Of a stretch of 64,000 bases of DNA, positions 404 to 53,494 are shown piece by piece. Both the position numbers and the translations under genes were made by a program. The DNA is from Ruminococcus sp. (GTDB lineage: Bacteria > Bacillota_A > Clostridia > Oscillospirales > Ruminococcaceae). The notes beneath the pieces were generated by a model. It made no database searches. It worked only from the letters and a program-made list of their open reading frames with translations, and was not told the origin of the DNA. Location of the stretch: contig JAFVAN010000023.1 of the NCBI GenBank assembly GCA_017480485.1, positions 1-64,000 on the forward strand, read 5' to 3'. How positions within the stretch are numbered: position 1 is the first letter of the stretch; the number at the start of each line of letters is the position of its first letter.

Positions 404-432
404 TTGACATTTCTTTATACTTATAGTATAAT
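404..432 (+). promoter_or_regulatory. Sigma-A-type promoter of the kinase/ABC/PP2C operon
   Basis: Perfect TTGACA at 404-409, 17 bp spacer, perfect TATAAT at 427-432. About 90 bp of leader separates it from the kinase start. It is among the best consensus promoters in the window, suggesting strong transcription of the signalling operon. Confidence 0.9.
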
Positions 433-529: not shown

Positions 530-2362
530 ATGCTTGAAATAGGCGACAGACTGAAATCCTATGAGCCGCTGTGGGAAAACTGGTATAAGGATTCCTACCT
601 CGGCGGAGGAAACTTCGGCAAGGTCTATAAACTGAAGCAGGACTTCCTTGGGGTGGTCACCTACTCGGCCGTCAAGATCATATCTATCAATCTTGAGAGC
701 GAGATGGTGGCGAAGGACAGAAGACAGTCCTACATTGAGGAAAGAAAGCGCTTCGTGGCCGAAGAGATCAAAAATATGTATAAGCTCAAGGGACGCTCGA
801 ACCTTGTGCACTGCCTGGCCCACTCCATAAGGGACGTTTATGACGACAACGGCGACCTTGTGGGCTTCGATGTACTTATCAGGATGGACTTCTACAGAGC
901 CCTTCCCGATTACCTGAAGCACAACGGCGCCCTCGACCAGAACAGCGTTGAAAAGCTTGCCTACCAGATAGGTATGGCGCTGGAGTCGATGCACGACATA
1001 AATATGCTGCACCGTGACATCAAGCCGGATAATATCTATATGGACGAGAAAAACGTCTTTTATCTGGGAGATTTCGGTGTTTCCAAGCAGGTGGATTCCA
1101 GCAGCTATTCCACACTGGCGGGAACTCAGCCCTTTATCGCCCCCGAGGTATGGCAGGTCACAAAGAGCAATAAGAATTACTCCAAGACCGCAGATATATA
1201 TTCCTACGGCATAACGCTGTATTACCTGCTGAACGAGAACAGGCTGCCGCTGGTAACGGCGGAAAGTAACCTGAACCAGATCGAGCAGGCCATCTACGAT
1301 AGACTCAACGGTAAACCCTTCCCGCCGCCGATGCACGGCTCCGAGAAGCTCAAGGCCGTGGTAATGAAGTGCTGCGAGTACAGGCCCGAGGATAGATTCC
1401 AGTCTATGGGCGAGGTGCTGGCAGCCCTGAGGAACGAGGGCTTCCGCTATACCCAGAAGCCTGTTGCACCCCAGATGCAGGACATGGCCCAGAAGACCAT
1501 GTATGCAGGAGCCCAGACAGGCGCCTCCTTCTCGGGACAGCAGCCCCTCTACGGCGGCACTCCCGCGCAGCCTGCTCAGCCCAGGTCGATCAGGCCGCCT
1601 GTGCAGCCTGCGGCCCCGTCAATGGCGCCGATCCCCTCTAACCCCAGCATCCCGCAGAACACCTACGGCAGTATGCCCACCACGGGCTATGCACAGCCTG
1701 CGCCTGTCGGCCCCGCGGCGGCTCCCGCCGCCAAGAAGGGCAGCAAGAAGGGCATCCTGATTGCAGCGATCGTTGCCCTGGTCGCTGCTATCGGCGTGGC
1801 CTGTGCCATTTTCATCCCCAAGCTGCTGGGCGGAGCTAAGGAATACAAGTTCGACGGCACCGTGAACTACGACGGCGACAACAACTATTCTACCTTTAAG
1901 GTGGACTCTGATAAGCTGGCCTACATCCCCGACAAGTATTTCACGGGCTATGACGAGGACGGCTGCTCGATCACCCTGAAGCTGGACACCGCCGATGTTG
2001 AGGCCTTCAACGTTTATAAGCAGTACCTTATCTCGGTGCTGGAGTATGACGCTGATGACAACCTCTACGCGACCAGCTCCGACTACATCGCGGGCGTTCC
2101 GAAGAAGGAGGAGGAGGGCGCCACCCTGTACCTCATCGACTTCGCGGAGCACTGCTATCTGGACGAAAACGGCGTGTTCGTCGTTGATATGTCGAATACA
2201 GGCAAGATAACCTTCAATCTCTCGGCGAAATGCGTCAAGAAGCTGCTGAAATCCTCTAACAAGGGTCTCGCCTTCCAGTGCTACGGCGTCAATATCACTG
2301 AGATAACCATTGACGCGGCAAAGAAGACCAACTCTGACGGCTTTATCAACCAGAGCTTCTAA
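530..2362 (+). CDS. Membrane-anchored Hanks-type Ser/Thr protein kinase
   Basis: Encodes 610 aa. The N-terminal kinase domain (about 1-305) has the glycine loop LGGGNFGKVY (24-33), the ATP-binding Lys in AVKI (49), catalytic loop HRDIKPDN (161-168), DFG (181-183) and APE (204-206), so it looks active. A Pro/Gln-rich linker (306-404) leads to one membrane helix (about 408-430), then a ~180-residue outer domain with no PASTA repeats that I recognise. The ATG at 530 follows AGGGGTGG; a start 42 bp upstream lacks a comparable site. It leads an operon with a double-FHA ABC ATPase, a permease and a PP2C phosphatase, so it probably phosphorylates the FHA-ABC system in response to something sensed outside. 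The outer ligand cannot be deduced. Confidence 0.93.
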   Translation: MLEIGDRLKSYEPLWENWYKDSYLGGGNFGKVYKLKQDFLGVVTYSAVKIISINLESEMVAKDRRQSYIEERKRFVAEEIKNMYKLKGRSNLVHCLAHSIRDVYDDNGDLVGFDVLIRMDFYRALPDYLKHNGALDQNSVEKLAYQIGMALESMHDINMLHRDIKPDNIYMDEKNVFYLGDFGVSKQVDSSSYSTLAGTQPFIAPEVWQVTKSNKNYSKTADIYSYGITLYYLLNENRLPLVTAESNLNQIEQAIYDRLNGKPFPPPMHGSEKLKAVVMKCCEYRPEDRFQSMGEVLAALRNEGFRYTQKPVAPQMQDMAQKTMYAGAQTGASFSGQQPLYGGTPAQPAQPRSIRPPVQPAAPSMAPIPSNPSIPQNTYGSMPTTGYAQPAPVGPAAAPAAKKGSKKGILIAAIVALVAAIGVACAIFIPKLLGGAKEYKFDGTVNYDGDNNYSTFKVDSDKLAYIPDKYFTGYDEDGCSITLKLDTADVEAFNVYKQYLISVLEYDADDNLYATSSDYIAGVPKKEEEGATLYLIDFAEHCYLDENGVFVVDMSNTGKITFNLSAKCVKKLLKSSNKGLAFQCYGVNITEITIDAAKKTNSDGFINQSF

Positions 2363-2470
2363 TTAGAGGTTAGAGGCTAGAGGCTGGGCGCCTTTGGCGG
2401 TTTTTAGAAATCAGTCCGCTTTGCGGACACCTTGTTCTCTAATATCTAATATCTAACATCTAACCTCTAA
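2363..2470. repeat. Heptad-armed inverted element (family D)
   Basis: The left arm is TTAGAGG-type 7-mers starting at the kinase stop codon; the right arm (about 2437-2470) is CTAATAT/CTAACAT/CTAACCT 7-mers ending CCTCTAA. Between them are short hairpins GCGCCTTTGGCG and GTCCGCTTTGCGGAC. The whole 108 bp can fold back. It sits between the kinase and the FHA-ABC gene and could tune readthrough or RNA stability. Confidence 0.7.
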
Positions 2471-2496
2471 AATGTACATTTTAATGAAAGGAAGAA

Positions 2497-4071
2497 ATGA
2501 CCTTGGACTTTAATCAGACAGTTTATTACAAACCGAAGCCGAAGAAAAAAGAAGCAGTCCTGCTGCTTATGGATAAGACCCACGTCCCCCATATGATAAG
2601 GCTGGACCGCAGCATAACGATAGGAAGAGAGTTCCCGGGCTCTACCTGTGACCTGAGAATAAATTCCTCCATCGTCAGCAGGCGCCACAGCGAGATAATC
2701 GTTGACGACTCCAGCGGCAATTATTACTACATCGACAACAACAGCCTCAACGGCTCCTTTGTAAACGGACAGAAGCTGCTGCGCTACAACGAGCGGGGCT
2801 CCTATGCGGCTCAGCTCTCGGACGGCGACATCATCCGCATCGACCAGAACAATCTGAACAACCCTCACGCCGACGCGGTGCTGATGGTGTTCAGCCAGAC
2901 CTTTAGCCTTGACGAGAAGTGGAAGACCTTCCCCATCGGCGCCCTGCCCCAGATAAGCATCGGTCGCGACCCAAGGTGCAACCTGTCCCTGACCGACCCA
3001 ATGACCTCTGCCTTCCACGCCACGATATACAGGGCGGGCGGCAGGACCTTCATCCGCGACGAGCACAGCACCAACGGTGTCGGCGTCAACGGCGTCGAGA
3101 TACAGTATGATACGGAGCTGTTCAATTACGACGTTATCAGACTTGCAAACACCACCCTGATCTTCCTTGGCGACAAGTTCGTTTACAACAGCGCCGAGGC
3201 CCAGACCAACAACGCCCTCTCCGTTACCATCAACGAGCACAGAGTTGACAACAAGAGCAAGCTGCTGCTGCTGAAGGACGTAAAGGCAGAGTTCAACAAT
3301 GGCGACTTCGTGCTGATACTGGGCGGCTCGGGCGCAGGCAAGACCACCCTTATCAACGCCATTCTGGCGGACCAGAGCCGCGGCAAGTACAAGACCGACG
3401 GCAAGATCATCCTCAACGGTCAGGACCTCTATAAGAACCTCAAGACCGTTAAGCCCCAGCTGGCAATGGTGCCTCAGTTCCTGATACTCAGGACCAGCGA
3501 CACCGTGCGCAACACGCTGATGGACAGAGCCGAGATCAAGATGCCCGGCCTCACAAAGGCAGAGCTCAAGCAGAAGGTAGACGATGTTCTCAACCACGTC
3601 GGCATCATGGAGCACGCTGAGAAGTACATAAGCAACCTCTCGGGCGGACAGCAGAAGAAGGCCTCGGTGGCCTATCAGCTCATCGGCTTCGCAAAGGTGT
3701 TCATCTGTGACGAGCCAGACTCCGGCCTTGACGCGGCCTCGAGAAAGCAGCAGATGGAGATCCTTGACGACATCGCCAAGGACGGCAAGATCGTTATGGT
3801 CATCTCTCACGAGCCCGACGACGCCTCCTACATCGACGAGATGGGCGTGAAGCGGTACCGCTTCAACAAGGTGCTGGTGCTCGCAAGGAACTCTGTGGAC
3901 AGAGCGGGCCATCTGGCCTTCTTTGGCAGCGTTGACGAGGCCATGAAGTTCTTCGGTGTAAACCAGCTGCAGGATATAATGATAGAGATCAATCCTCCCG
4001 AGGAGGGCGGCAAGGGCCTTGCCGATATGTATATAAATAAATTCTTAGCAATGAACGGGGGATCTTTATAA
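2497..4071 (+). CDS. Double FHA-domain ABC transporter ATPase
   Basis: Encodes 524 aa. Two forkhead-associated phosphothreonine-binding domains come first: FHA1 about 39-117 (TIGRE...SRRHSEI...NSLNGSFVNG) and FHA2 about 152-228 (SIGRDPRCNL...STNGVGVNG). The ABC ATPase follows with Walker A GGSGAGKTT (276-284), signature LSGGQQKK (381-388), Walker B VFICDEP (401-407) and switch-His in ISHEP. The eye-catching parallel is mycobacterial Rv1747, which has two FHA domains, an ABC ATPase and a membrane domain in one chain and is a PknF substrate; here the membrane part is the next gene. The start follows GAAAGGAAG. Likely an ABCG-type exporter ATPase gated by phosphorylation; the substrate is unknown. 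Confidence 0.92.
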   Translation: MTLDFNQTVYYKPKPKKKEAVLLLMDKTHVPHMIRLDRSITIGREFPGSTCDLRINSSIVSRRHSEIIVDDSSGNYYYIDNNSLNGSFVNGQKLLRYNERGSYAAQLSDGDIIRIDQNNLNNPHADAVLMVFSQTFSLDEKWKTFPIGALPQISIGRDPRCNLSLTDPMTSAFHATIYRAGGRTFIRDEHSTNGVGVNGVEIQYDTELFNYDVIRLANTTLIFLGDKFVYNSAEAQTNNALSVTINEHRVDNKSKLLLLKDVKAEFNNGDFVLILGGSGAGKTTLINAILADQSRGKYKTDGKIILNGQDLYKNLKTVKPQLAMVPQFLILRTSDTVRNTLMDRAEIKMPGLTKAELKQKVDDVLNHVGIMEHAEKYISNLSGGQQKKASVAYQLIGFAKVFICDEPDSGLDAASRKQQMEILDDIAKDGKIVMVISHEPDDASYIDEMGVKRYRFNKVLVLARNSVDRAGHLAFFGSVDEAMKFFGVNQLQDIMIEINPPEEGGKGLADMYINKFLAMNGGSL

Positions 4072-4985
4072 TGAATGACGCTTCATTTGGATTACAGACC
4101 AAGGTATATTTCAAGAAGATAGCGCGTATCGCCATCAAGGAAAAATTCATAAAGTTTTTGGCCTTCGCAGCGGTCATAGCCTTTATGGTAGGCTTTGTTG
4201 TGGGCGAGAAGATGTTCAAGAGCTTTGAGGACACCCAGTCGGGCTTCTTCACCATCGCCTCGGCGGGCATCTGGCTGGGAATATTCAACTCCATCCAGAA
4301 CATCTGCAAGGAGCACAACATAATCAAGGCCGAGTATCGTTCGGGCCTGAATCTGGCCTCCTACGTTACCGCCCACGCCCTGTGGCAGTTCGTTATCTGC
4401 CTTGCCCAGACGGTCATCATCCTGGTGGTCTGCCTGATCTTCGTTGATTTTGAGGGCGGCCAGATAATCGACGACTTCCCCCACCTTGAGAACTTTATAA
4501 CCATCCTGCTCCTCACCTTTGGCGCAGATATGCTGGGCCTTATGATCTCGGCTATTGCCGATACGCCCACCACCGCTATGACCATCATGCCCTTCGTGCT
4601 GATCGTCCAGCTGATACTCAGCGGCGTTCTGTTCCCGCTGGAGGGCCTTGTAGGCGGCGTTGCAAACATCACCTACAGCAAGTGGGGAATGCACGCCTTC
4701 GCCTCTACCTCTCACATTCTTACCCTTCCCACGGCCTCTCAGGGCAAGCTGGGCGAGATGGGTCAGGACGCTCAGAAGAAGGATAACGACACCTTCAAGG
4801 CAGCAGTATACGGCGACGCCGCGAAGGAGTTCAAGCCCGAGAAGAACGAGGTCTTTGACTACAAGCACGATTACAAGGACGAGGTAAGCAACGTCCTTGG
4901 CTCCTGGGGTATAATAATCCTTATCACGGGAGTATGCTACGGAGTGACGATAGGAGTATTGAAATTCAAGAACCGAGGTTCGTAA
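4071..4985 (+). CDS. ABC-2 type transporter permease
   Basis: Encodes 304 aa and starts in a TAATG overlap with the FHA-ABC ATPase, implying translational coupling and a shared complex. About six hydrophobic segments are visible, including AFAAVIAFMVGFVVGE, FVICLAQTVIILVVCLIFV, FITILLLTFGADMLGLMIS, TTAMTIMPFVLIVQLILSG and the C-terminal IIILITGVCYGVTIGVL. A charged, Lys-rich loop lies just before the last helix. The order (soluble N-terminus, core helices, extracellular loop, final helix) fits ABC-2/ABCG half-transporter membrane domains. It would correspond to the C-terminal membrane half of Rv1747-like proteins. Substrate not deducible. Confidence 0.88.
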   Translation: MNDASFGLQTKVYFKKIARIAIKEKFIKFLAFAAVIAFMVGFVVGEKMFKSFEDTQSGFFTIASAGIWLGIFNSIQNICKEHNIIKAEYRSGLNLASYVTAHALWQFVICLAQTVIILVVCLIFVDFEGGQIIDDFPHLENFITILLLTFGADMLGLMISAIADTPTTAMTIMPFVLIVQLILSGVLFPLEGLVGGVANITYSKWGMHAFASTSHILTLPTASQGKLGEMGQDAQKKDNDTFKAAVYGDAAKEFKPEKNEVFDYKHDYKDEVSNVLGSWGIIILITGVCYGVTIGVLKFKNRGS

Positions 4986-5002
4986 AGGAGGGCAGTCAGC
5001 TG

Positions 5003-5857
5003 ATGAGTAATGAGCTTGAAAACGCGAATGTGGCAGAGGCTGCCGCAGCCGCTCCCGCACAGCCCGAGGGTGCGCCCCGCATAAGGGTCGCCGCCGCCTC
5101 TCACAACGGCGCCGTAAGGGCAAACAACGAGGATAACTATTCCATCAACGGACAGTACAGACAGATAGATGACCTTATCGTGGACTTTGAGGACACCCTG
5201 CCCGCAGACGGGCTGATGCTGGAGGTCTGCGACGGCATGGGCGGCGAGGCCATGGGCGAGGTCGCCTCTGAGATCGCCGTTAAACACACCGCCGACCTTC
5301 TTGTAAAGCTTCGCCAGGCCGACGAGAAGGACCTTATAAACGAGATCAACAGTTATGTTGACAGGGCCAACAACGAGATCTGCGAGACCATTGGCAACAC
5401 CGAGACCCGCCGCGGCGGCAGCACCTTTGTGCTGATCTATTTCAAGGGCGACGTGGTCTATCCCTACTCGCTGGGAGACAGCAGGATCTACGCCTTCAAC
5501 GGCACGAAGCTTGTGCAGATAAGCGAGGACCACACCCTCGGCATGAGAAAGTACAAGTCCAACATCATCACCTTTGAGGAGGCCATGACAGGCCCCGACA
5601 GCCACAAGCTGACGCTGTTCCTCGGGGTGGACATCGACAACAACGGCCTTACCGCCCAGCCCTACCGCCCATTCAGGGTAGAAAGGGGCTGGAAGCTGCT
5701 GCTTTGCAGCGACGGCCTCTATGACATGGTGTCGGCGGTGGAGATCGCCGAGACCCTGCAGCTGGATACCTCCGAGGCCTGCAAGCGCCTTGTAGAGCGG
5801 GCCATCGCCCACGGCGGCATCGACAACGTCACGGTCATCGTGGCGGAGATGATCTGA
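5003..5857 (+). CDS. PP2C-family Ser/Thr protein phosphatase
   Basis: Encodes 284 aa from an ATG preceded by AAAGGAGGG; the gap to the permease stop is 17 bp. PPM/PP2C motifs are in order: NGAVRANNEDNY, VCDGMGGEAMGE (metal-binding DGMGG), GGSTFVLIYF, YSLGDSRIYAF, SEDHTL, LLLCSDGLYDMV and the C-terminal GGIDNVTVIVAE. All metal-ligand aspartates of the family appear present. The Ala/Pro-rich first ~35 residues are probably disordered. It most likely reverses phosphorylation by the operon's kinase on the FHA-ABC protein or on the kinase itself. A terminator follows, making this the last gene of the four-gene unit. Confidence 0.93.
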   Translation: MSNELENANVAEAAAAAPAQPEGAPRIRVAAASHNGAVRANNEDNYSINGQYRQIDDLIVDFEDTLPADGLMLEVCDGMGGEAMGEVASEIAVKHTADLLVKLRQADEKDLINEINSYVDRANNEICETIGNTETRRGGSTFVLIYFKGDVVYPYSLGDSRIYAFNGTKLVQISEDHTLGMRKYKSNIITFEEAMTGPDSHKLTLFLGVDIDNNGLTAQPYRPFRVERGWKLLLCSDGLYDMVSAVEIAETLQLDTSEACKRLVERAIAHGGIDNVTVIVAEMI

Positions 5858-5861
5858 ACAG

Positions 5862-5896
5862 AAAAAAGGGACTGCATCGCAGTCCCTTTTATTTTG
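5862..5896 (+). terminator. Bidirectional intrinsic terminator
   Basis: GGGACTGC-ATC-GCAGTCCC stem with an A-run before and TTTTATTTT after. It separates the PP2C gene from the convergent spermidine-synthase-like gene and can serve both. Confidence 0.9.
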
Positions 5897-21834: not shown

Positions 21835-24800
21835 TTATTTGCTCTCCTTGCTGAGACGCTTGTGGATGTTGTCGATATCCTCCATGCTGCCGCCGCCGTG
21901 GTCCTCGGGGTCGCGGAACTCGCCCTTGTCCACCAGCCGCAGGAAGGCGTCAACTACGTCCTCGGTCAGCTGAGTGCCGCGGACCTCCTTCATTATGGAG
22001 ACTACCTTTTCAAAGTTCATCCGCTTGCGGTAGGGTCGGTCGGAGTACATGGCGTCGAAGGTGTCAGCCACCGCGATTATCTGTGCAACGCGGGGTATCT
22101 CGTCGCCCTTGAGGCCCTTGGGATAGCCCTTGCCGTCGGGGCGCTCGTGATGGGCGCCTGCACCTATGGCCAGCTCCGGCATTATGCTGATGTCCTTCAA
22201 TGCGTTATAGCCCAGCGCCGAATGGGACTTGATGACAGCGAATTCCTGATCCGTGAGTTTGCCCGGCTTGTTGAGCACCTCGGGCGGAACGCCTATCTTG
22301 CCAATGTCGTGCATGAGGGCGATGTTGTAGTATCTGTCGATGGTCTCCTCGTCATAGCCAAGCTCTCGGGTGAGCATTGAGGTGTACTCGGCAACTCTTG
22401 TGGAGTGGCCGTTGGTGTACTTGTCCTTCATATCTATCACCTTCGCGAAGGCCTCCACGATCTCGCGGATAAGTGTCTTCTGCTCCTGCTCCTTCTGGCG
22501 GAACCTCCTCATGCGGATATGGATATAATAGGTCACAGCCATTCCGATGAACAGCAGCCCGACCAGGGTCACGGTGATCTTGAACCAGAGTGTTTCCCAG
22601 ACAGCCTTTTCCTTGACGATCTTAACCGAGATCTGCTTGGTGTCCTGACTGTGAGGATCCTGTATCTTCATCTGGAAGCTGTATTCGCCGCCCTTGAGGT
22701 TTGTGTAGTCGATAGCGGCAAGCTCGCTGCGCTTAACGGTCGTGGAGTTCTTTTCAAAGCCCTCCAGCCTGTAGGTGACGTTCGGATTGGTCAGCGAGTA
22801 GTTGTAGACGAAGCTGTAAATGGTAAGCCTGCTCACCTTCGAGGAGATACGGAAACTGCCGTCCTCCTCGGGATAGATATACTCGCCGTCGGCCTCGATG
22901 AATGGCACCGCAAGCTTTATGTCGCTCACCTTTTCGTAGTGATCCTCGATATTGACTTTGCACACACCTGTTGTACAGGAGATGTACAGGTCGCCGTCCT
23001 CCGTCAGCTCGCTGTAGGAGTTGGAGGTGGTGATGCAGGGCAGACCGTTGTCCCTGCCATAGTAAAGAGGAGTGATCTCGCCGTTTTCCAGCAGCTCGTC
23101 AACATCTGTAACATAGATGCCGTTGCTGCTGAGTATCCACATCTCGCCGTGGCTGTTCTCGTAGAGGTCAAAGTTGTTGGAGTAGGGGAATTTTTTGATA
23201 GTGACTATGGAGTCGTCCGACTTGATGTAGGAGATGGAGTTGCTGGTGACTATCCAGCAGAGGTCGCGGGTGCGGTCCCGCTTTATCCTCATTACAACGT
23301 CGGAGCTGAGGCCTGCTTCTGTGCCAAGGTGGACGATGCCCTTGTCGTTGACCACATAGATGCCGCCGCCGTCGGTGCCAACAAGCAGCTCGCCGTTTGG
23401 CGCCTCAACAGCCGTCAGCACCTCGGTGTTGCTGATGCCCGAGGTCTCGTCCAGCACCTCGATGACCTTGTCATCCTTGATTATTGCAAGGCCGCCCGTG
23501 CAGGCCACCAGTATCCGCCCGTCCTCGCACTCGCTCACGGCCCTTATCCTCTCCGAGGGAAGGCCGTCGGCGGTGGTGAACTTTGTGACCCTTCCGTGGT
23601 CGTAGCGCACCAGCCCCTGCTCGCCAAAGGTCGAGAACCATACCCGCTCCTTGCTGTCCCGGATTATGGAGCGTATCTTGCTGTCCTTGAAGAGCTCCAG
23701 AAGGTCCGTGTCCTCGCATTTCTGTCCCGAGGCCGTAACGCAGGAGCTTATAGGCAGGCTCTCGAGGATCCCTCCGCTTTGCAGGGCAATGAGGCCGCCC
23801 GTCTTTGTGCCGATGAAGAGCTTGTTGTCGCTGATGCAGGTGGAGTAAACGACCTCTCGGGATAAATTATACTTGTCAAAGATATCCGTGAACTGGTCGG
23901 GGACTATCTTCATCACTCCCTGCTGAGAGGAGGCGAACCAAAGGTTCCCCTGATAGTCCAGCATTACGTTCTCTACCGAGGTGGTCATGGGAACGTTGTC
24001 CACAAGCGTCAGCCTGTGGTTTTGTACATATCCGATACCGAAGTCGGTGCAGACCCAGACCATGTCCTCCACTTGGATGATGGAGTTTGTGTAGCCCAAG
24101 GGGCTTATGTCGAAGCTCTCGGCGTTGCGCATCGCGCCTGCAAGATCGCCGTGATAAAGCTTTGAGCCCTGGGTGCCAACGTAGATATACCCGAGCTTTT
24201 CGGGGTCGGGCAGTATTGCGTGGATGTCGGAGATGCCAAGCTTGCGGGCGTCGTAGAAGGATGTCACCCTCTTATCCTGAAGCGTGAAGATGGCGCCCTC
24301 GATGGTAAGGCCGTAGATGATGCCGTCTCTGCCCCGCTTGAGCATACGGATGTATTCCTCGTTTATCTGGGGCTCGTCGATAGGAACGAGCTCGAGGTCG
24401 GAGTTTATATATGCTATGCCGTGGGTGGTGGCAAGGTAGATATTGCCCTCGTTGTCCTCGGTTATCGAGCGGACGGAAAGGGAGGAAAGGCCGTCGCTCT
24501 TGTTGTACATCCGAACCTCTCCGTTGTTCATCAGGGCGGCGCCGCTGTCGTTGGTGCCCACCCACAGACGGTTCTTCGAGTCGCAGTAGAGGCTCACCAC
24601 GCTGGCGATACCGCCCGTGGAGTCGACGCGCTCGAAGGTGTTGCCGTCGTAGCGGATAAGGCCGCTGTAGCTGCCTATCCAGATAAAGCCCTCGTCGGTC
24701 ATGGCTATGGCGTTGGCCTCAGAGGTAGGCAGGCCGCTGGTGTTGTCGTAGAGCACTGCAGTGTAGCCGTCGCCGTTGCCCGAGGGATCGACCGAAAGCT

Positions 24801-24939
24801 CCTCGGCATAAATGTCGGAGGCCGCAAAGGCCCTGCTGCCCTCGGGGAGCATCGGCAGCACCGCCGCCCCAAGCATCAGCGCCGCAAGGATGCAGACGCA
24901 CATCCTGAGCGCAATGTTCTTATTTGCCTTTGTGTTCAT
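21835..24939 (-). CDS. Membrane beta-propeller sensor with HD-GYP phosphodiesterase domain
   Basis: Encodes about 1034 aa; the ATG of MNTKANKN is better spaced from CAGGAG than the one 6 bp upstream. A signal peptide (to AFA, about 40) leads to many ~45-residue two-component-propeller repeats (e.g. EGFIWIGSYSGLIRYDG, ENVMLDYQGNLWFASSQQG), then a Y_Y_Y-like domain, one TM (VTLVGLLFIGMAVTYYI, about 790-815) and a cytoplasmic HD-GYP domain with HDIGK, HHERPDGKGYP and VADTFDAM. It likely hydrolyses cyclic-di-GMP in response to an extracellular ligand, in a single chain with no kinase or receiver domain. Active-site motifs appear intact. Confidence 0.9.
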   Translation of the reverse strand: MNTKANKNIALRMCVCILAALMLGAAVLPMLPEGSRAFAASDIYAEELSVDPSGNGDGYTAVLYDNTSGLPTSEANAIAMTDEGFIWIGSYSGLIRYDGNTFERVDSTGGIASVVSLYCDSKNRLWVGTNDSGAALMNNGEVRMYNKSDGLSSLSVRSITEDNEGNIYLATTHGIAYINSDLELVPIDEPQINEEYIRMLKRGRDGIIYGLTIEGAIFTLQDKRVTSFYDARKLGISDIHAILPDPEKLGYIYVGTQGSKLYHGDLAGAMRNAESFDISPLGYTNSIIQVEDMVWVCTDFGIGYVQNHRLTLVDNVPMTTSVENVMLDYQGNLWFASSQQGVMKIVPDQFTDIFDKYNLSREVVYSTCISDNKLFIGTKTGGLIALQSGGILESLPISSCVTASGQKCEDTDLLELFKDSKIRSIIRDSKERVWFSTFGEQGLVRYDHGRVTKFTTADGLPSERIRAVSECEDGRILVACTGGLAIIKDDKVIEVLDETSGISNTEVLTAVEAPNGELLVGTDGGGIYVVNDKGIVHLGTEAGLSSDVVMRIKRDRTRDLCWIVTSNSISYIKSDDSIVTIKKFPYSNNFDLYENSHGEMWILSSNGIYVTDVDELLENGEITPLYYGRDNGLPCITTSNSYSELTEDGDLYISCTTGVCKVNIEDHYEKVSDIKLAVPFIEADGEYIYPEEDGSFRISSKVSRLTIYSFVYNYSLTNPNVTYRLEGFEKNSTTVKRSELAAIDYTNLKGGEYSFQMKIQDPHSQDTKQISVKIVKEKAVWETLWFKITVTLVGLLFIGMAVTYYIHIRMRRFRQKEQEQKTLIREIVEAFAKVIDMKDKYTNGHSTRVAEYTSMLTRELGYDEETIDRYYNIALMHDIGKIGVPPEVLNKPGKLTDQEFAVIKSHSALGYNALKDISIMPELAIGAGAHHERPDGKGYPKGLKGDEIPRVAQIIAVADTFDAMYSDRPYRKRMNFEKVVSIMKEVRGTQLTEDVVDAFLRLVDKGEFRDPEDHGGGSMEDIDNIHKRLSKESK

Positions 24940-24961
24940 CAGCATCCACTCCTGTTCTGTA

Positions 24962-25802: not shown

Positions 25803-25834
25803 TCAGAGGTCAGATGTTAGATGTTAGAGGTTAG
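25803..25834. repeat. Heptad-repeat arm (family D) overlapping a gene end
   Basis: GAGGTCA/GATGTTA/GATGTTA/GAGGTTA 7-mers. The stop codon of the downstream HAD gene is supplied by the last repeat unit, suggesting insertion at, or replacement of, that gene's 3' end. Confidence 0.6.
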
Positions 25835-26544
25835 AAGTGGGTCCTGTCGAATATGAAGCCCCTTAGCTCTTCTATGCTGCCGTGGGGCCAGCTGCTAAGG
25901 TCACGGCCGTGCTTGTTTATCAGGTGGTCCGTCAGCAGAAAGACCTCCATGCCCGTCTCTTGGGCGGGGGTGTCCTCGTCGGCGTCGTTGCCGATCATCA
26001 GGCACTCGGAGCCCTCGAGGCCCGTGCGCCGCAGCAGCTCCCGGTAATAGTCCACATTGGGCTTGCAGTAGCTGATGTTCTCGTAGGTGGTGTAGAGCTC
26101 GAAGTCCTCGGGCTCCAGCCCCGCCCAGCGTATCCTGTTCTCGGTGGCAACGGCAGGGAAGAGGGGATTGGTGGCAAGTATCACTCTGAGTCCCCGCTCC
26201 TTTATTTCATTAACAAGAGCTATCAGCTCCTCGCTCCTGCCGCAGAGGGCCTGTGCACCGTTGAACTCGTTGGCATAGAACTCGTCAAAGACGGGCATAT
26301 CCTTGTATACCCGCTCGCCCTCGATGGCCGCGAAGGTCTCCCAGAAGGCGTCGTAGTTGGAGCGGCTGCCGTCGTTTTTCACCATGGCCGCCGTGCCCGC
26401 CCAGATGGAGCTCACAAGTCTCTCACCGTCATAGCCCAATGGCATCAGCTTCTTCACCAGCAGCTTGAAATAGCCCTTGGTGAACTCCTCGTTGTCCATA
26501 GGCAGCAGCGTGCCGTCAAGGTCAAAGAATATCGCTTTTATCAT
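25831..26544 (-). CDS. HAD-superfamily hydrolase
   Basis: Encodes 237 aa. HAD motif I FFDLDGTLLP (nucleophile Asp8), motif II VILATNP, motif III/IV region KPNVDYYRELLRRTGL...MIGNDADEDTPAQETGM. The helical cap after motif I (type C1) fits phosphoglycolate-phosphatase-like enzymes. Substrate unpredictable. Its final residues are encoded next to a heptad-repeat arm, and its start follows AGAGGAC. Confidence 0.88.
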   Translation of the reverse strand: MIKAIFFDLDGTLLPMDNEEFTKGYFKLLVKKLMPLGYDGERLVSSIWAGTAAMVKNDGSRSNYDAFWETFAAIEGERVYKDMPVFDEFYANEFNGAQALCGRSEELIALVNEIKERGLRVILATNPLFPAVATENRIRWAGLEPEDFELYTTYENISYCKPNVDYYRELLRRTGLEGSECLMIGNDADEDTPAQETGMEVFLLTDHLINKHGRDLSSWPHGSIEELRGFIFDRTHF

Positions 26545-33971: not shown

Positions 33972-34934
33972 CTAATACTCGTGGGGCGGGAAATAATGAA
34001 ACGCATCAAACACCTCGCCATCGTCGCTGCGGGTGTACCATTCCGTGAGCTCAAGCTGGGGAAGGTATTCCTCAGGGTCGAAAAGGACCTCGGCGCCCGG
34101 GGCGTGGGAGAATTCTACCCGATGCATACAGCCGCCGCTGAGTATCCAGTAGACCTCTTTCTCGGCCTTGACGCCGTAACGGGTCTGAGTGTAGCTTATC
34201 TTTATGGCAAAGCGCCCGTCGGAAAGGTCAAGGGCCTCGTAGACCGGCTCGCTGCGGTCGGTGTCTGGGGGCGTTTGCTTGTGGGTGGTCGAGTCCCCGG
34301 AAACGCCGAAAAACATCATGTCCGGACTTTGAGGAATGTCCTTGAAGGCCTCGTCTGAGGGGTCTGACTCGATGGTCCCGTCCGGCAGGTCGAAAAAGTC
34401 GTAGCAGTACATTACCTCGTGGGCCGCAAAGTAGGGGGCGCATTGGCCTATCTCCCGCTTGAGCTCCGCCATGTAGTCCCCCTCGGTGGCAAGGGAGGGC
34501 GTGCCCTCGGGCATTATCTCCAGCGCCCGCTCGTAGGTGATTATATAGGGCTCGATGTCCGTGAAGGGCTGGATGAGCACATAGTCAGTGAGCTCCGGGA
34601 AGAACTCGCTGGTCACCAGCACCGCCGCCTGACAGAAGATATTGGTATGCTCCATCTCCCAGGGGTCCCGCTCGTAGACGTAGACGTTCCCGTCCTCCGG
34701 CAGCCGAACGCCCATTTTTTCATAGGTCATATAGCCGTCCCCGCTGCCCTCGAGCTTTTGGACGTGTTCACTGTCCTCAATATCCACCCCGTCCGGGAGA
34801 AAGCAGTAGGGGTGCTCTGTTCGGTAGCTTTCAAGCTGCTCTTCAAGGGTCATTGAGGCAGCTCCGCTGCTGCCACCGCCCCCGCAGCCCGTAAGCAGCA
34901 GGCAGACGGCAAGTATCAACGTGCTCTTTTTCAT
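33972..34934 (-). CDS. Lipoprotein of a tandem pair (copy 2)
   Basis: Encodes 320 aa. Lipobox LLLTGC with Cys17 after MKKSTLILAVC. The first ~57 residues (to DIEDSEHV) are almost identical to the upstream paralogue; the remainder diverges strongly but keeps shared short motifs such as YVYERDPWE, FPELTDYVLI and FAIKISYTQTRYGVKAEKEV. Outer-face lipoprotein of unknown function. It follows copy 1 by about 90 bp on the same strand. Confidence 0.8.
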   Translation of the reverse strand: MKKSTLILAVCLLLTGCGGGGSSGAASMTLEEQLESYRTEHPYCFLPDGVDIEDSEHVQKLEGSGDGYMTYEKMGVRLPEDGNVYVYERDPWEMEHTNIFCQAAVLVTSEFFPELTDYVLIQPFTDIEPYIITYERALEIMPEGTPSLATEGDYMAELKREIGQCAPYFAAHEVMYCYDFFDLPDGTIESDPSDEAFKDIPQSPDMMFFGVSGDSTTHKQTPPDTDRSEPVYEALDLSDGRFAIKISYTQTRYGVKAEKEVYWILSGGCMHRVEFSHAPGAEVLFDPEEYLPQLELTEWYTRSDDGEVFDAFHYFPPHEY

Positions 34935-35023: not shown

Positions 35024-35995
35024 TTATTCCTCTTCATCCTTGAAGGGGTTCTCGCCGAAGTAATGCTCGCGGCTGCCGCCCTCGTCCTTTATCACGGGGT
35101 CCGTCAGCACCAGCCCCTCCAAAAAACCTTGGATATCGAACTGGTCAACGGCGCTGTCGTCGGAGGAGAACTCCACCCGTGTGAAGAAGCGTCCGCCGTG
35201 CCCCAGCCAGTAGACCTCCTTGGTGCTTTGCAGGCCGTAGCGCCGCTGGGTGTAGCTGAAATGCAGACCATAGCAGCCGTTTTCAAGCTCCACGGCCTCA
35301 TAGGTCAGGTCCCGCCGGCCGCTGTCGGGGGCCTCACGGCGCTTGGTGATAAAGTTCGCCTCGGGGAAAAGCAGCTTGTTGGGCTCCTGCAAAACAGTCG
35401 CCAGAGAGGGGTCCCCGAAGGGCTCTGTGACGTTCTCGGCCTCGTCCACTCCGATGTAATCGTAGCAGTAGAAGCTCTCGTGGGCCCCAAGGTATTCCGC
35501 TGCCCCCCAGAGCTCTTCCTTCAGCAGCTTGTCATATCCTGCCTGAGTTATCATGGGGTCGTCGTAGAGGGCCATCTCGTAGGTGTTGCATTCCGGCTCC
35601 ACATCCGTGAAGTAGGAGAGCATGATGTAGTCCGTCACCTGAGGGAAATAGGGGTTGGTGATGAACACCGCCGCCTCGCAGCAGGGGTCCGTCTCTTTTT
35701 CGTACCAGGGGTTTCGCTCGTAGACATAGGCCTTCCAGCCATCCTCCAGCGGAAAGCTTACGCCAAACTGCGGCAGTGTGATATTGCCGTCCATATCGGC
35801 AGCCTCAGCCGTAACGTGTTCACTGTCCTCAATGTCCACCCCGTCCGGGAGAAAGCAGTAGGGGTGCTCCGTGCGGTAGCTTTCAAGCTGCTCTTCAAGG
35901 GTCATTGAGGCAGCCCCGCTGCTGTCACCGCCCCCGCAGCCCGTAAGCAGCAGGCAGGCGGCAAGTATCAATGCGCTCTTTTTCATGTGTTTCAT
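35024..35995 (-). CDS. Lipoprotein of a tandem pair (copy 1)
   Basis: Encodes 323 aa; the start is fixed by a 4 bp ATGA overlap with the upstream gene. Lipobox LLLTGC in MKHMKKSALILAACLLLTGC. After the shared block up to DIEDSEHV it is distinct from copy 2, though both keep the YVYERNPWY, FPQVTDYIML and LHFSYTQRRYGLQSTKEVYW positions, so they are duplicates with a homogenised N-terminus. Unknown function at the membrane outer face. Confidence 0.8.
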   Translation of the reverse strand: MKHMKKSALILAACLLLTGCGGGDSSGAASMTLEEQLESYRTEHPYCFLPDGVDIEDSEHVTAEAADMDGNITLPQFGVSFPLEDGWKAYVYERNPWYEKETDPCCEAAVFITNPYFPQVTDYIMLSYFTDVEPECNTYEMALYDDPMITQAGYDKLLKEELWGAAEYLGAHESFYCYDYIGVDEAENVTEPFGDPSLATVLQEPNKLLFPEANFITKRREAPDSGRRDLTYEAVELENGCYGLHFSYTQRRYGLQSTKEVYWLGHGGRFFTRVEFSSDDSAVDQFDIQGFLEGLVLTDPVIKDEGGSREHYFGENPFKDEEE

Positions 35996-36396
35996 TGGTC
36001 CTCTTTCTGTTTTTCGCGTTCCTCGCGATTTTTTCTTCTCTGCCCTCTGTTCATCTCCTCGGAGGCGAACACCTGCACTGCCGCGTCGGTCAGCTCGTCG
36101 GGCCATTCCCTTCCGCTTTTTATTACGCTTGCCCAAGGGCAGAGCCTTTCGTATTCATCATCAAAGATCACAGTATAGGGCGGGCCGCAGCGGTCGTTCA
36201 CAGACATATACATATGTCTTCCGTCATGTATGATGTTCCCGGCATCCCATTCCCCCATTTTTTCATCCAGCCGCTCAAACAGCTCCTTTGTGATCTCGTA
36301 CAGGTGATAATCCTGTACCCCGCCGTATTCGCCGAAATATCTTCCGCTGTCCTCGTCAAAGCAGGCCTTCCAGCCCGAGCTTTTCTTGAATATCAT
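35992..36396 (-). CDS. Hypothetical 134-aa soluble protein
   Basis: The ATG follows ACGGAGGATATCT. MIFKKSSGWKACFDEDSGRY begins a soluble protein with a central GQYGG-like segment (YFGEYGGVQDYHLYEITKEL) and a very basic/acidic tail (GQRRKNREEREKQKEDQ). I do not recognise a family. First gene of an operon with the two lipoproteins, linked by ATGA; small cytosolic partners of this sort are sometimes immunity-like, but nothing here proves it. Confidence 0.7.
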   Translation of the reverse strand: MIFKKSSGWKACFDEDSGRYFGEYGGVQDYHLYEITKELFERLDEKMGEWDAGNIIHDGRHMYMSVNDRCGPPYTVIFDDEYERLCPWASVIKSGREWPDELTDAAVQVFASEEMNRGQRRKNREEREKQKEDQ

Positions 36397-38351: not shown

Positions 38352-39557
38352 ATGTTTTGTCCTAATTGCGGGACCGAAATGGCCGAGGGCTCGAGATTTT
38401 GCCGCAGCTGCGGAGCGCCGCTTGATGAGCCCGCACAGCCTCAGCCCGAGCAGGTGACCGATGCCCGCTTTGAGTATTATCCCGAGCAGGAGGCCCAGGC
38501 CGAGACCCGCACCATGTACGCAGGGCCGCAGGAAACTGCCGCTCCCGAACAGCCTCAGACCGAGTACGCGCAGCCTGTGATCTCACAGCCTGCATATGAG
38601 CAGCCTGCTTACACCCAGCCTCAGACCTACGCTCAGCCGACCTACGAGCAGCCTCAGACCTACGCCCAGCCGACGCAGCCTGCACCGACTTATACAACTG
38701 CGGCCGCTGTCAAGGGCTCAAACGTCAAGGGCAGGGCCTTCCTTTGGATGGTGCTGCTGTTCTTCCTTTGCATCCTGCTGTTTATCTCTCTACTTGCAAG
38801 GTTCCTGACCTCTAAGGACTACTTCAAGGGCGTGTTCAAGGACGCCAGCGATCAGGCCGCCCAGTCCGACGCGGTCATCGACATGATCGAGGAGAATTCC
38901 ACCCTCGATCACGACGACATCGAGGAGATCCTTGAAAAGACTGACTTCTCAAAGCTGCTCACCAAGTACAGCACCCGGATAACCACCTTCGTTTTCGAGG
39001 GCGGCAAGAATCCCAAGCTTGACCCCGACGAGATAATCGACGCCATCGAGGACAATCAGAAGGACATCGAAAAGGTCATCGACAAGCGCCTTGGCGACAA
39101 GGATTGGGAAAAGATCGAGAATGAGACCTACAAGTTCACCGATGAATTCAACGACAACATCAAGGACGTCAAGAGGGATCACAGCATCGTTTTCAGCATC
39201 ACAAGCGTTATCGGCTCCTTCTGGTTCATGTGGGTCATAATCGGCCTGATGCTGCTGATACTTGTAAGGCTCCTGTTCCTCTACAAGAAGGACGGCTCGG
39301 GAGTCTACAGGGCCTTCCGCGGCTACTCCATCGTTTACGGCATCCACGCCCTTATCCTCATCGTTGTATCTGTTGTCATCCCCTCGGTGCTCTCAAACAT
39401 CAGCGGCGAGACTGCGGGCGTTGTAGCGGCTGTCATCAAGCCCATGATGAAGGCCCCGATGTACGTCGGCTTCATCTTCCTTGGCCTCTGCGTGCTTTGC
39501 ATAGTGCTCTGCATCGTGATGAACGTGCTTTACAACAAGAAGCGAAGGCCCGCATAA
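38352..39557 (+). CDS. Zinc-ribbon, QP-repeat membrane protein
   Basis: Encodes 401 aa. N-terminal Cys4 ribbon MFCPNCGTEMAEGSRFCRSC, then a long Gln/Pro/Tyr-rich linker with repeats of YEQPQTYAQPT type (about 45-110), a TM (FLWMVLLFFLCILLFISLLA, about 130-150), an extracytoplasmic acidic helical domain (about 155-285) and three further TMs to the C-terminus. Zinc-ribbon plus QP linkers are common in clostridial membrane proteins of unknown role. The linker composition resembles that of the kinase at 0.5-2.4 kb. Confidence 0.82.
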   Translation: MFCPNCGTEMAEGSRFCRSCGAPLDEPAQPQPEQVTDARFEYYPEQEAQAETRTMYAGPQETAAPEQPQTEYAQPVISQPAYEQPAYTQPQTYAQPTYEQPQTYAQPTQPAPTYTTAAAVKGSNVKGRAFLWMVLLFFLCILLFISLLARFLTSKDYFKGVFKDASDQAAQSDAVIDMIEENSTLDHDDIEEILEKTDFSKLLTKYSTRITTFVFEGGKNPKLDPDEIIDAIEDNQKDIEKVIDKRLGDKDWEKIENETYKFTDEFNDNIKDVKRDHSIVFSITSVIGSFWFMWVIIGLMLLILVRLLFLYKKDGSGVYRAFRGYSIVYGIHALILIVVSVVIPSVLSNISGETAGVVAAVIKPMMKAPMYVGFIFLGLCVLCIVLCIVMNVLYNKKRRPA

Positions 39558-46526: not shown

Positions 46527-46612
46527 CGCTTCATAGAGGTTAGAGGTCAGAGGTCAGAGGTGAGATAAGGTGCGCCGTTGGCGCGATTTTTTCTGTCCTC
46601 TGTCCTCCGGTT
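46527..46612. repeat. Heptad-armed element (family D)
   Basis: Arm of AGAGGTT/AGAGGTC/AGAGGTC/AGAGGTG 7-mers (46535-46565), hairpin GGTGCGCCGTTGGCGC, then CTGTCCTCTGTCCTCCGG. Lies between the small operon and its promoter. Confidence 0.6.
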
Positions 46613-46734
46613 TCCAACCTCGTGTAAAATATCTCCGTTGTGGTCGTGTTCTTCTCGGGGTCATCGGCTATGTTCCTTTCTCTGAAAGCTGAGAGCTCTA
46701 TCCTCGGGGCAAGGATAGAAGAGCCTTCAGAAAC

Positions 46735-52058: not shown

Positions 52059-53141
52059 TTAGTCAAAATAGCCCTTTGCAGCAAGCAGCTCGGCCAGCAG
52101 CACGGCGCCGCCCGCAGCGCCTCTCAGCGTGTTGTGAGAGAGGCAAACGAATTTGTAATCATACTGGGTGTCCTCACGCAGTCTGCCGATGGAAACGGCC
52201 ATGCCGCCCTCCAGCATACGGTCAAGCTTGGCCTGAGGCCTGTTGTCCTCGGTAAAGTAATTGAGGAACTGCTTGGGGGCGGAGGGGAGCTCCAGCTCCT
52301 GAGGAACGCCCGCAAAGTTCTTCCAAGCGTCCAGAATCTGCTCCTTGGTGGGCTTCTTTTCAAAGCTTACGAAAACAGCTGCGGTGTGGCCGTCGGAAAC
52401 AGGGACTCTCAGGCACTGGGCGGTGATGGAGGGCTCTGTGGCCTCAACTATCCTGTCGCCCTCTACGCGGCCCCAGATCTTCAGGGGCTCCTTCTCGCTC
52501 TTCTCTTCCTCGCCGCCGATGAAGGGGATAACGTTATCAAGGATCTCGGGGAAGGTCTCGAAGGTCCTGCCTGCGCCGGAAATAGCCTGATAGGTGCAGA
52601 CCAGCGCCTTTGTTACCTTGAATTCATCCATCAGGGGAGCAAGGGCGGGAACGTAGCTCTGCAGCGAGCAGTTGGACTTAACGGCGATGAAGCCGCGCTT
52701 GGTGCCAAGGCGCTTGCGCTGTGCCGCAATTACCTCGATATGCTCGGGGTTGATCTCGGGGATCACCATAGGAACATCGGGGGTGAAGCGGTGGGCCGAG
52801 TTGTTGGAAACGATGGGGCACTCTGCCTTTGCGTACTTTTCTTCAAGGACGCGTATCTCGTCCTTCTTCATGTCTACTGCGCAGAAGCAGAAATCTACCA
52901 TAGCGGCGATCTTCTCCACGTCCTCCTCGGCGTTGAGGATGACCATATCCTTCATGGACTCGGGCATCGGGTCCTGAAGCTTCCACTTGCTGCCCGCAGC
53001 CTCGGCGTAGGTCTTGCCCGCACTTCTGGGAGAAGCCGCCAGACAAACTACGTCAAACCAGGGATGCTTGTCGAGGATGAGAGAAAATCTCTGTCCCACC
53101 ATGCCCGTTGCGCCGATGATTCCGACCTTGTACTTTTTCAT
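52059..53141 (-). CDS. asd: Aspartate-semialdehyde dehydrogenase
   Basis: Encodes 360 aa. GATGMVGQRFSLIL (NADP-binding), SNNSAHR, catalytic Cys in VKSNCSLQSYVPAL, and VPVSDGHTAAVFVSF (substrate His region) mark the archaeal/fungal-type Asd used by many clostridia. Reduces aspartyl phosphate. First gene after the lysine riboswitch. Confidence 0.97.
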   Translation of the reverse strand: MKKYKVGIIGATGMVGQRFSLILDKHPWFDVVCLAASPRSAGKTYAEAAGSKWKLQDPMPESMKDMVILNAEEDVEKIAAMVDFCFCAVDMKKDEIRVLEEKYAKAECPIVSNNSAHRFTPDVPMVIPEINPEHIEVIAAQRKRLGTKRGFIAVKSNCSLQSYVPALAPLMDEFKVTKALVCTYQAISGAGRTFETFPEILDNVIPFIGGEEEKSEKEPLKIWGRVEGDRIVEATEPSITAQCLRVPVSDGHTAAVFVSFEKKPTKEQILDAWKNFAGVPQELELPSAPKQFLNYFTEDNRPQAKLDRMLEGGMAVSIGRLREDTQYDYKFVCLSHNTLRGAAGGAVLLAELLAAKGYFD

Positions 53142-53245: not shown

Positions 53246-53483
53246 TAAAAAAACCGGTTGAAAACCGGAGCATCATACAATATAATAAGAATGTTGACAC
53301 AAATAAATTATGCCGATAGCACTCCATCATAAGTAATGATGACAACCGAAGCTCTATTAAAGCAGCAGTCAGCTGCGGCATCCCACACCGCGCTTCGGCG
53401 ATCTCACCTTTCGCGTTTCCGAGCCCTTGGGAAGGCCTTGGCTTTCGCCCCGGGAACGCTACTCATCTTGACCGCGCCTCTAT
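53246..53483 (-). promoter_or_regulatory. Lysine riboswitch (L-box) with terminator
   Basis: Minus strand from 53483: AGAGGCGCGGTC, AAGATGAGTAGC, GAAAGGTGAGATCGCCGAAG, then GTCATCATTACTTATGATGG and AGTGCTATC, the conserved L-box segments. An intrinsic terminator CTCCGGTT-TTC-AACCGG + T7 follows at 53246-53272. High lysine should stop transcription before asd-dapA-dapB. Confidence 0.95.
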
Positions 53484-53494
53484 CTCTAAACAAT

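Follow-up and report, generated by a model that had tools for sequence, protein, structure and literature searches.

A four-gene cluster with kinase, transporter and phosphatase genes

Near the start of the 64,000-nucleotide stretch of Ruminococcus sp. DNA analysed here (contig JAFVAN010000023.1; below, the window is this whole stretch), four genes on the + strand encode a membrane Ser/Thr kinase, an ATP-binding cassette (ABC) ATPase with two FHA domains, an ABCG-type permease and a PP2C phosphatase (Table 1). The four genes are real, and the open reading frames (ORFs) and the sequence searches of Pfam, NCBIfam and the PDB are concordant. A first-pass annotation had described the set as a split relative of the Rv1747/PknF system of Mycobacterium tuberculosis. 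ORFs and Pfam matches confirm the set, and the separate ATPase and permease ORFs, the two FHA domains and the neighbouring kinase bear out the proposed architecture.

The same annotation had regarded all four genes as co-transcribed, which is very likely for the last three only. The ATPase and permease genes overlap by 1 nt, the permease start lying one base inside the ATPase stop codon, and the 17-nt gap between permease and PP2C carries a AAAGGAGG site. Genes 2–4, tightly packed as they are, very likely form one unit. For the kinase, a shared transcript is uncertain, because the 134-bp spacer between kinase and ATPase is occupied by a heptad-repeat element with a terminator-like hairpin. The scan for promoters and terminators yielded 8 promoter-like and 11 terminator-like sites, compared with 3.6 and 5.4 in shuffled sequences.

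Table 1. Features of the kinase–transporter–phosphatase cluster (positions in the window)
Feature	Position	Strand	Basis
Sigma-70-like promoter, TTGACA-17-TATAAT	404..432	+	12/12 consensus matches; consensus scan only
Membrane Ser/Thr kinase, 610 aa	530..2362	+	ATG at 530; Pkinase 9.4e-38 (Pfam)
Linker motif T323-M-Y-A-G, candidate phospho-Thr docking site	1496..1510	+	Linker comparison
Predicted transmembrane helix of kinase	1754..1810	+	Hydrophobicity scan
Kinase outer domain, predicted all-beta, low-confidence model	1844..2359	+	Search for relatives; AlphaFold2
Dispersed heptad-repeat element with terminator-like hairpin at 2376-2398	2363..2481		Repeat and hairpin scans
FHA-FHA-ABC ATPase, 524 aa	2497..4071	+	FHA in 2 stretches 8.7e-32; ABC_tran 3.3e-24 (Pfam)
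N-terminal tail motif T8-V-Y-Y-K-P	2518..2535	+	Thr8 in 116/120
FHA1, residues 40-115	2614..2841	+	Pfam, alignment, PDB search
FHA2, residues ~151-223	2947..3165	+	Pfam, alignment; best solved match Rv1747 FHA
ABC nucleotide-binding domain, residues 259-408	3271..3720	+	Pfam, alignment
ABCG-type permease, 304 aa	4071..4985	+	ABC2_membrane 1.7e-18 (Pfam); predicted structure
PP2C phosphatase, 284 aa	5003..5857	+	PP2C_2 7.5e-10 (Pfam)
12-pair terminator-like hairpin 3' of cluster	5864..5890	+	Consensus scan only

The ATPase carries two FHA domains and a conserved N-terminal threonine

The ATPase was compared with its relatives in an alignment of 120 listed homologues (the window protein included) of 1618 found among 7997 scored candidates. 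The Walker A and B motifs, the LSGGQ signature, the D-loop and the H-loop are intact in the window protein and nearly invariant in the alignment. The nucleotide-binding domain is similar to the ABCG-type model TIGR00955 (5e-42), under that model's cut-off.

Both FHA domains of the window protein are intact, as the annotation had held: Pfam finds two stretches, and both keep the five residues which, following the FHA literature, we take to form the phospho-Thr site (G43, R44, S61, H64 and N85 in FHA1; G156, R157, S171, H174 and N193 in FHA2). In FHA2, each of the five is present in 120/120 sequences. FHA1 has G43 and N85 in all 120 and R44 and H64 in 113 each. The best solved match of FHA2 is an FHA domain of Rv1747 (6cah, 2.5e-6). 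FHA1 is closest to SLMAP (8.2e-8), followed by CHFR and others; its matches to GarA, OdhI and Rv1747 are weaker, at 0.002 to 0.008. About 35 residues separate the two domains, given that the Pfam match to FHA1 ends at residue 115 and a Yop-YscD_cpl match covers the second domain from residue 151.

The tail that precedes FHA1 is conserved around Thr8. Besides Thr8 itself, Tyr stands at +2 in 91 of the 120 homologues, Tyr or Phe at +3 in 114 and Pro at +5 in 111; residues 4-7 are variable. The pattern T-x-[YFM]-[YFV] occurs within the first 30 residues of 96 homologues, and 4.6 would be expected from shuffling.

The permease and the phosphatase

An AlphaFold2 (AF2) model of the permease, built from 31 sequences, has a mean confidence (pLDDT) of 86.6, and its Foldseek matches are ABCG5/G8, ABCG25 and ABCG2 (best 1.3e-6). 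The ABC-2 permease of the annotation thus stands, and by the membrane fold of the model the protein appears to be an ABCG-type half transporter. No FtsX- or MacB-type fold was found among the 50 listed Foldseek matches.

A phosphatase does belong to the cluster, as had been claimed. The PP2C motifs NED, DGMGG, DGLYD and DN are present (by eye), and the best solved match is PstP (2cm1, 1.6e-24). Against the Stp1/IreP model NF033484, the protein scores below the cut-off (159.2 bits against 230, E 1.2e-46).

The kinase and its outer domain

The kinase is apparently active, judging by its G-loop (25-30), K49, HRD (161), DFG (181) and APE (204), positions to which we assign their usual catalytic meaning. 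It scores only 94.3 bits against the PASTA kinase model NF033483 (cut-off 450), and Pfam found no PASTA repeats in it. The annotation's view of the outer domain as unusual fits these results: in a search that reaches relatives sharing exact 5-residue words, the window-type domain occurred in 4 protein clusters only, the window's own included.

The AF2 model of this domain, made from 4 sequences, is poor (pLDDT 58.4), and Foldseek gave no match for it at E ≤ 0.001. Names at the top of the sub-threshold list (Eph-receptor ligand domain, cohesin, carbohydrate-binding) do no more than hint at a beta-sandwich and were disregarded. Chance-level matches were all that came from a profile search against PDB sequences (two, E 1.8 and 2.5) and from a Pfam scan up to E 5 (one, 0.23).

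Adjacent kinases of related clusters bear different outer parts. The kinase domain of the window protein is 64% identical to that of locus L184, 60% to that of L022 and 59% to that of L165, and the outer parts of these kinases differ: SH3-like (by eye) in L184, almost none in L022, predicted all-beta in the window. The outer part of the L165 kinase (L165:7714-9012, + strand) is weakly like a secreted cellobiose-binding protein (8bfy, 6e-4). More distant adjacent kinases have PASTA, SH3_3, F5/8-type, leucine-rich or TPR regions, and the whole range of identity to the window's kinase domain is about 22-64%. In these sequences, similar kinase domains thus appear with different outer domains. As an observation in its own right, the L165 protein may be a solute-binding-protein-like sensor on a Ser/Thr kinase.

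Conservation of the neighbourhood

Related loci were drawn from GTDB-based collections. One set of 80 contributed L001-L028 and L080; the remainder, L029-L079, match little beyond the ATPase domain and were not kept. After removal of 11 duplicates and the weak locus L173, 68 loci were scored, the window included. L025-L028 are counted, although their matches begin at residues 257, 234, 206 and 153, so that one or both FHA domains may be missing from them.

Among the 48 loci flanked by 3 kb or more on each side, a same-strand permease stands no more than 5 kb away in 43, a PP2C in 34 and a kinase in 27; in all 68 loci, the counts are 62, 48 and 37. When kinases on either strand are considered, 40 fall into the 589 kb surveyed at distances up to 5 kb and 3 into the 408 kb beyond, which makes them about nine times denser near the transporter. 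The association of the four genes is not a matter of chance. It is worth stressing that the loci are not independent, because some share one genome and many share one genus. In L004, which has no local kinase, the neighbours (a Na/Pi cotransporter, a Big_2 protein, a Na-solute symporter, alanine racemase and DNA polymerase I) were set aside as housekeeping synteny rather than part of a module.

The FHA-ABC gene is present in at least 36 of 161 genomes of one genus and is rarer outside it (at least 5/295, 4/200 and 11/297), all of these being lower bounds, since scoring was limited to the top 5 to 9 candidates in each genome. At least one kinase occurs in 157 of the 161 genomes, comprising all 36 carriers of the FHA-ABC gene and 121 of the 125 others. 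Among the matches listed (about 14 per genome at most), carriers have a median of 7 kinases and the remaining 125 genomes a median of 3. This higher number tracks lineage as well and is no proof of function.

Peptidoglycan-type enzymes beside the kinase

Among the neighbours scanned, a peptidoglycan-type enzyme adjoins the kinase in 14 of the 36 kinase-bearing relatives, with a match above cut-off in 10. These are M15 proteins in L014, L024 and L188, beta-lactamase2-like proteins in L015, L016, L018 and L184, C39 in L019 and L139, Amidase_3 in L170, and YkuD-like proteins above the Pfam cut-off in L019 and below it in L134, L135, L023 and L155. L142 shares this gene order and is not among the 14; a 291-aa neighbour gene in L002 has no Pfam match. 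In L184, which of the loci found has the kinase domain most similar to that of the window, the beta-lactamase2-like gene lies exactly between kinase and ATPase, a position that is held in the window by the spacer repeat element. Other neighbours, which were set aside, are a DUF3597 protein in L189, a calcineurin-like phosphoesterase in L022 and an SH3_3 protein in L186. The split FHA-ABC cluster is thus present in various Clostridia of gut and rumen, and cell-wall enzymes are often next to it. These neighbours suggest that a cell-envelope role is likely.

A threonine motif in the kinase linkers

The cytosolic linkers of the kinases change fast. The K-T323-M-Y-A-G of the window kinase is kept as T-[MLV]-Y-A-G in 4/4 sequences compared (window included), and the pattern T-x-x-A-[DEN] recurs in the linkers of other kinases beside the transporter. 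It is present in 18 of 34 adjacent-kinase linkers and 3.9 would be expected from shuffling (the window is in the denominator as a non-carrier). Unlinked kinases from 4 genomes with the FHA-ABC gene carry it in 13/23 cases (2.2 expected), compared with 2/10 (0.9 expected) in 5 genomes that lack the gene. The linkers of PrkC orthologues have it in 0/9 cases, and one further orthologue, L279, carries it.

Control patterns stay near expectation. The reversed pattern occurs 3, 4, 2 and 0 times in adjacent, unlinked, FHA-ABC-less and PrkC linkers (4.0, 2.3, 0.8 and 0.2 expected), and the Ser version 3, 0, 1 and 1 times (3.5, 2.3, 1.1 and 0.3 expected). The related pattern T-x-[YF]-A is enriched in adjacent kinases only (13/34; 1/23 and 0/17 in unlinked ones).

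In a second sample, for which the motif was fixed beforehand, 7/15 unlinked kinases of FHA-ABC genomes carry it and 0/12 from genomes without the gene (p=0.008). The pooled samples give 20/38 and 2/22 (p=0.0008); for adjacent kinases, the corresponding comparison is 18/33 with 2/22. Short or transmembrane-less linkers, PrkC orthologues, tail-less kinases and duplicates were left out (7/30 and 15/25 in the first samples, 15/30 and 18/30 in the second). The PrkC orthologues excluded from the second sample were L279 and L282, with which the count becomes 8/17.

Two further proteins have similar stretches. A membrane protein with a zinc ribbon (by eye; 38352-39557, + strand) has R-T54-M-Y-A-G in its linker, the same T-M-Y-A-G as the kinase, and is a possible further client of the kinase or the FHA domains. 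Near the cluster of L184, a second kinase (L184:3809-4945, + strand) ends in Y-K-T-T-D-A-N-K, which fits the docking motif, and has no long linker.

A proposed phosphorylation-controlled exporter

The reading that we favour, and hold to be reasonably probable, is that the cluster encodes an ABCG-type exporter akin to Rv1747 and controlled by phosphorylation, in which ATPase and permease are split and which has a kinase and phosphatase of its own. It builds on the domain content, the intact motifs, the neighbourhood, the conserved Thr, the motif enrichment and the ABCG fold of the permease model, each of them observed.

In such a system, the kinase would sense an extracellular signal through its interchangeable outer domain and autophosphorylate the linker Thr (in T-M-Y-A-G here, in T-x-x-A-[DEN] in relatives). 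An FHA domain of the ATPase would dock on this phospho-Thr, as the motif enrichment and the precedent of PknG and GarA suggest. The docked ATPase would then be phosphorylated on Thr8, a step for which its conservation and the precedents of GarA, OdhI and DgcB argue. The phosphorylated tail could be captured by an FHA domain, either in its own subunit or in an adjacent one, which would latch or cluster the transporter in another activity state, and the PP2C would reset the latch. The output of the exporter is probably related to the cell envelope, perhaps an envelope precursor or a lipid-linked molecule; this is the weakest step. PknF positively modulates Rv1747, according to an excerpt of PMC3908365, which would favour phosphorylation as the "on" state of export.

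Several results weigh against this reading. The first-pass annotation had made its proposal depend on the kinase and the FHA-ABC gene occurring together in relatives and on the presence of phosphopeptide-binding residues; each holds in part. A kinase is close by in the 27 full-flank loci mentioned above and absent within 5 kb from the other 21 of 48, and therefore other kinases must act there, or none does. The phospho-Thr residues are complete in FHA2 and mostly kept in FHA1, where position 61, Ser in the window, is Gly in 93/120 sequences and Ser in 26; therefore FHA1 may not bind phospho-Thr in most relatives. The window's own linker has Gly rather than D, E or N at +4 and was not scored as a carrier of T-x-x-A-[DEN]. 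In the first batch, the Fisher tests of the motif were non-significant (p 0.07 and 0.08), and a less strict version, T-x-x-A-[DENSQG], failed to tell the sets apart (p 0.7) and was dropped. The kinases compared are also related: when their kinase domains are clustered at 60% identity, 7 clusters of adjacent, 5 of unlinked and 4 of negative kinases remain, with summed motif fractions of 3.6, 1.5 and 0.2, and these are too few for a test at the level of clusters. The window holds no clue to the substrate. The window ORFs include no cell-wall enzyme beside the cluster, and so the cell-wall link rests on relatives. Finally, an Rv1747 mutant is reported to show no visible cell-wall change or altered drug sensitivity (PMC3908365, excerpt).

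The loci without a kinase, together with the many kinases that FHA-ABC carriers have elsewhere (median 7) and the hairpin-bearing repeat between kinase and ATPase in the window, would also fit a loose association, in which the FHA domains read unrelated proteins or general PrkC-type kinases and the neighbouring kinase regulates something else. We consider this unlikely, since kinase density is about nine times higher up to 5 kb from the transporter than beyond, very different kinases recur beside the same transporter, and the nine PrkC-orthologue linkers lack the motif, L279 being the further orthologue that has it.

Somewhat less likely still is a signalling or mechanical ABC complex with an FtsEX-like role, in which ATP-driven changes would control extracellular peptidoglycan enzymes and the kinase would set the state. 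The enzymes beside the kinase in 14 relatives and the SH3, PASTA or F5/8-type outer domains of several adjacent kinases speak for it. Against it stand the ABCG fold of the permease model with no FtsX or MacB among its 50 listed matches, the similarity of the nucleotide-binding domain to TIGR00955, and the window and many other loci, where the cluster lacks a neighbour of this type. A drug, bacteriocin or antimicrobial-peptide efflux pump tuned by cell-wall stress is improbable: ABCG transporters include drug pumps and the nucleotide-binding domain matches the bacteriocin/drug export models TIGR03608 and TIGR01188 below their cut-offs, but its similarity extends broadly to all ABC ATPases (210 families matched), and by eye no immunity, precursor-peptide or resistance gene was recognised among the ORFs beside the window cluster, where no dedicated search was made.

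Within the favoured exporter reading, we tentatively propose a modular phospho-tether. The Thr-latched FHA-FHA exporter might plug into any kinase with a T-x-x-A-[DEN]-type tag, in cis and in trans, while outer sensors (SH3, PASTA, F5/8-type, leucine-rich repeats, binding-protein-like, all-beta) would be freely swapped; the exporter would be a hub through which many surface signals reach one envelope output. If the exporter reading is right, the cluster would offer a safe model for phospho-Thr/FHA gating of an ABC transporter with specific testable threonines. It would also supply a candidate docking tag of kinases from outside Actinobacteria and connect the sensing of surface signals with peptidoglycan enzymes and with export.

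Other features of the window

The heptad-repeat element of the spacer has arms that read TTAGAGGTTAGAGG... and ...CCTCTAA, with partial copies near 25819 and 46535. The element (2363-2481, ~25816-25840 and ~46533-46625) is intergenic and has TTAGAGG-type units, a GC hairpin and, in two copies, inverse units. With at most one mismatch, AGAGGYTAGAGG has 9 matches compared with 0.85 expected.

A lysine riboswitch (RF00168, 91.8 bits; 53309-53490, - strand) lies upstream of a - strand gene at 52059-53141 which, by eye, is aspartate-semialdehyde dehydrogenase-like and is followed by a dapA-like gene. Two lipoprotein-like neighbours (33972-34934 and 35024-36136, - strand) begin with the near-identical stretch EEQLESYRTEHPYCFLPDGVDIEDSEHV and then diverge (by eye), which suggests that they are likely a tandem duplication. 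A 1036-aa protein (21835-24945, - strand) seems by eye to join a propeller-type sensor to an HD-type (HD-GYP-like) output domain.

Comparison with known systems

To our knowledge, work on ABC transport gated by FHA domains has centred on a single protein of the tuberculosis bacterium. No paper on an FHA-FHA-ABC, permease, PP2C and kinase cluster in Clostridia was found among titles and abstract openings of mostly open literature. What appears to be new here is a split, probable FHA-ABC exporter whose kinase, reader, transporter and phosphatase stand in one small Clostridia cluster. The N-terminal Thr, the kinase-linker motif, the peptidoglycan enzymes beside the kinase and the swapping of outer domains are likewise new and were absent from the first-pass annotation.

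The closest parallel is Rv1747/PknF of M. tuberculosis, a two-gene operon in which FHA-1, FHA-2, the nucleotide-binding domain and an ABCG-like membrane domain belong to Rv1747. The window cluster shares with it the two FHA domains, the ABC ATPase, the ABCG-type membrane part and a kinase gene next door. It differs in that ATPase and membrane domain are separate ORFs, a PP2C is included, the FHA domains are not joined by a long disordered linker, the ATPase has a conserved Thr tail before FHA1 and the kinase has a swappable outer domain. In excerpts of the published work, loss of Rv1747 lowers phosphatidylinositol mannoside (PIM) glycolipids and the protein is a proposed PIM exporter (PMC5549992), and its FHA region condenses on phosphorylation by PknF, which PstP reverses (PMC9312465). 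The phosphatase of the window thus has its best solved match in the very enzyme that reverses condensation of Rv1747.

The membrane Hanks-type kinase with a PP2C also recalls PrkC/Stk1 and Stp1/IreP of Firmicutes, and several relatives have PASTA domains on the adjacent kinase. Unlike PrkC/Stk1, the window kinase lacks PASTA and falls far below the PASTA kinase model, and the T-x-x-A-[DEN] motif is foreign to the nine PrkC-orthologue linkers. The permease model shares its fold with ABCG5/G8, ABCG2 and ABCG25, and the nucleotide-binding domain is near TIGR00955, but the window protein is a split half-transporter that bears FHA domains and stays below the cut-off of that model.

For the threonines, the precedents are FHA-based. 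An autophosphorylated segment of PknG recruits the FHA protein GarA or OdhI (PMC8546545, excerpt); the Thr motif of the window kinase lies in a cytosolic linker, that of PknG in a disordered segment. DgcB of Bdellovibrio, GarA and OdhI have in common, according to an excerpt of PMC6733907, a Thr in the tail that precedes the FHA domain on its N-terminal side, hydrophobic residues at +2/+3 and a tail bound by the FHA domain. The Thr tail of the window ATPase resembles them in its place before the FHA domain and in its hydrophobic +2/+3 residues. It differs from GarA and OdhI in that the motif is T-x-Y-[YF]-x-P rather than ETTS, its phosphorylation is predicted, and it sits on an ABC ATPase with two FHA domains instead of a small stand-alone FHA protein.

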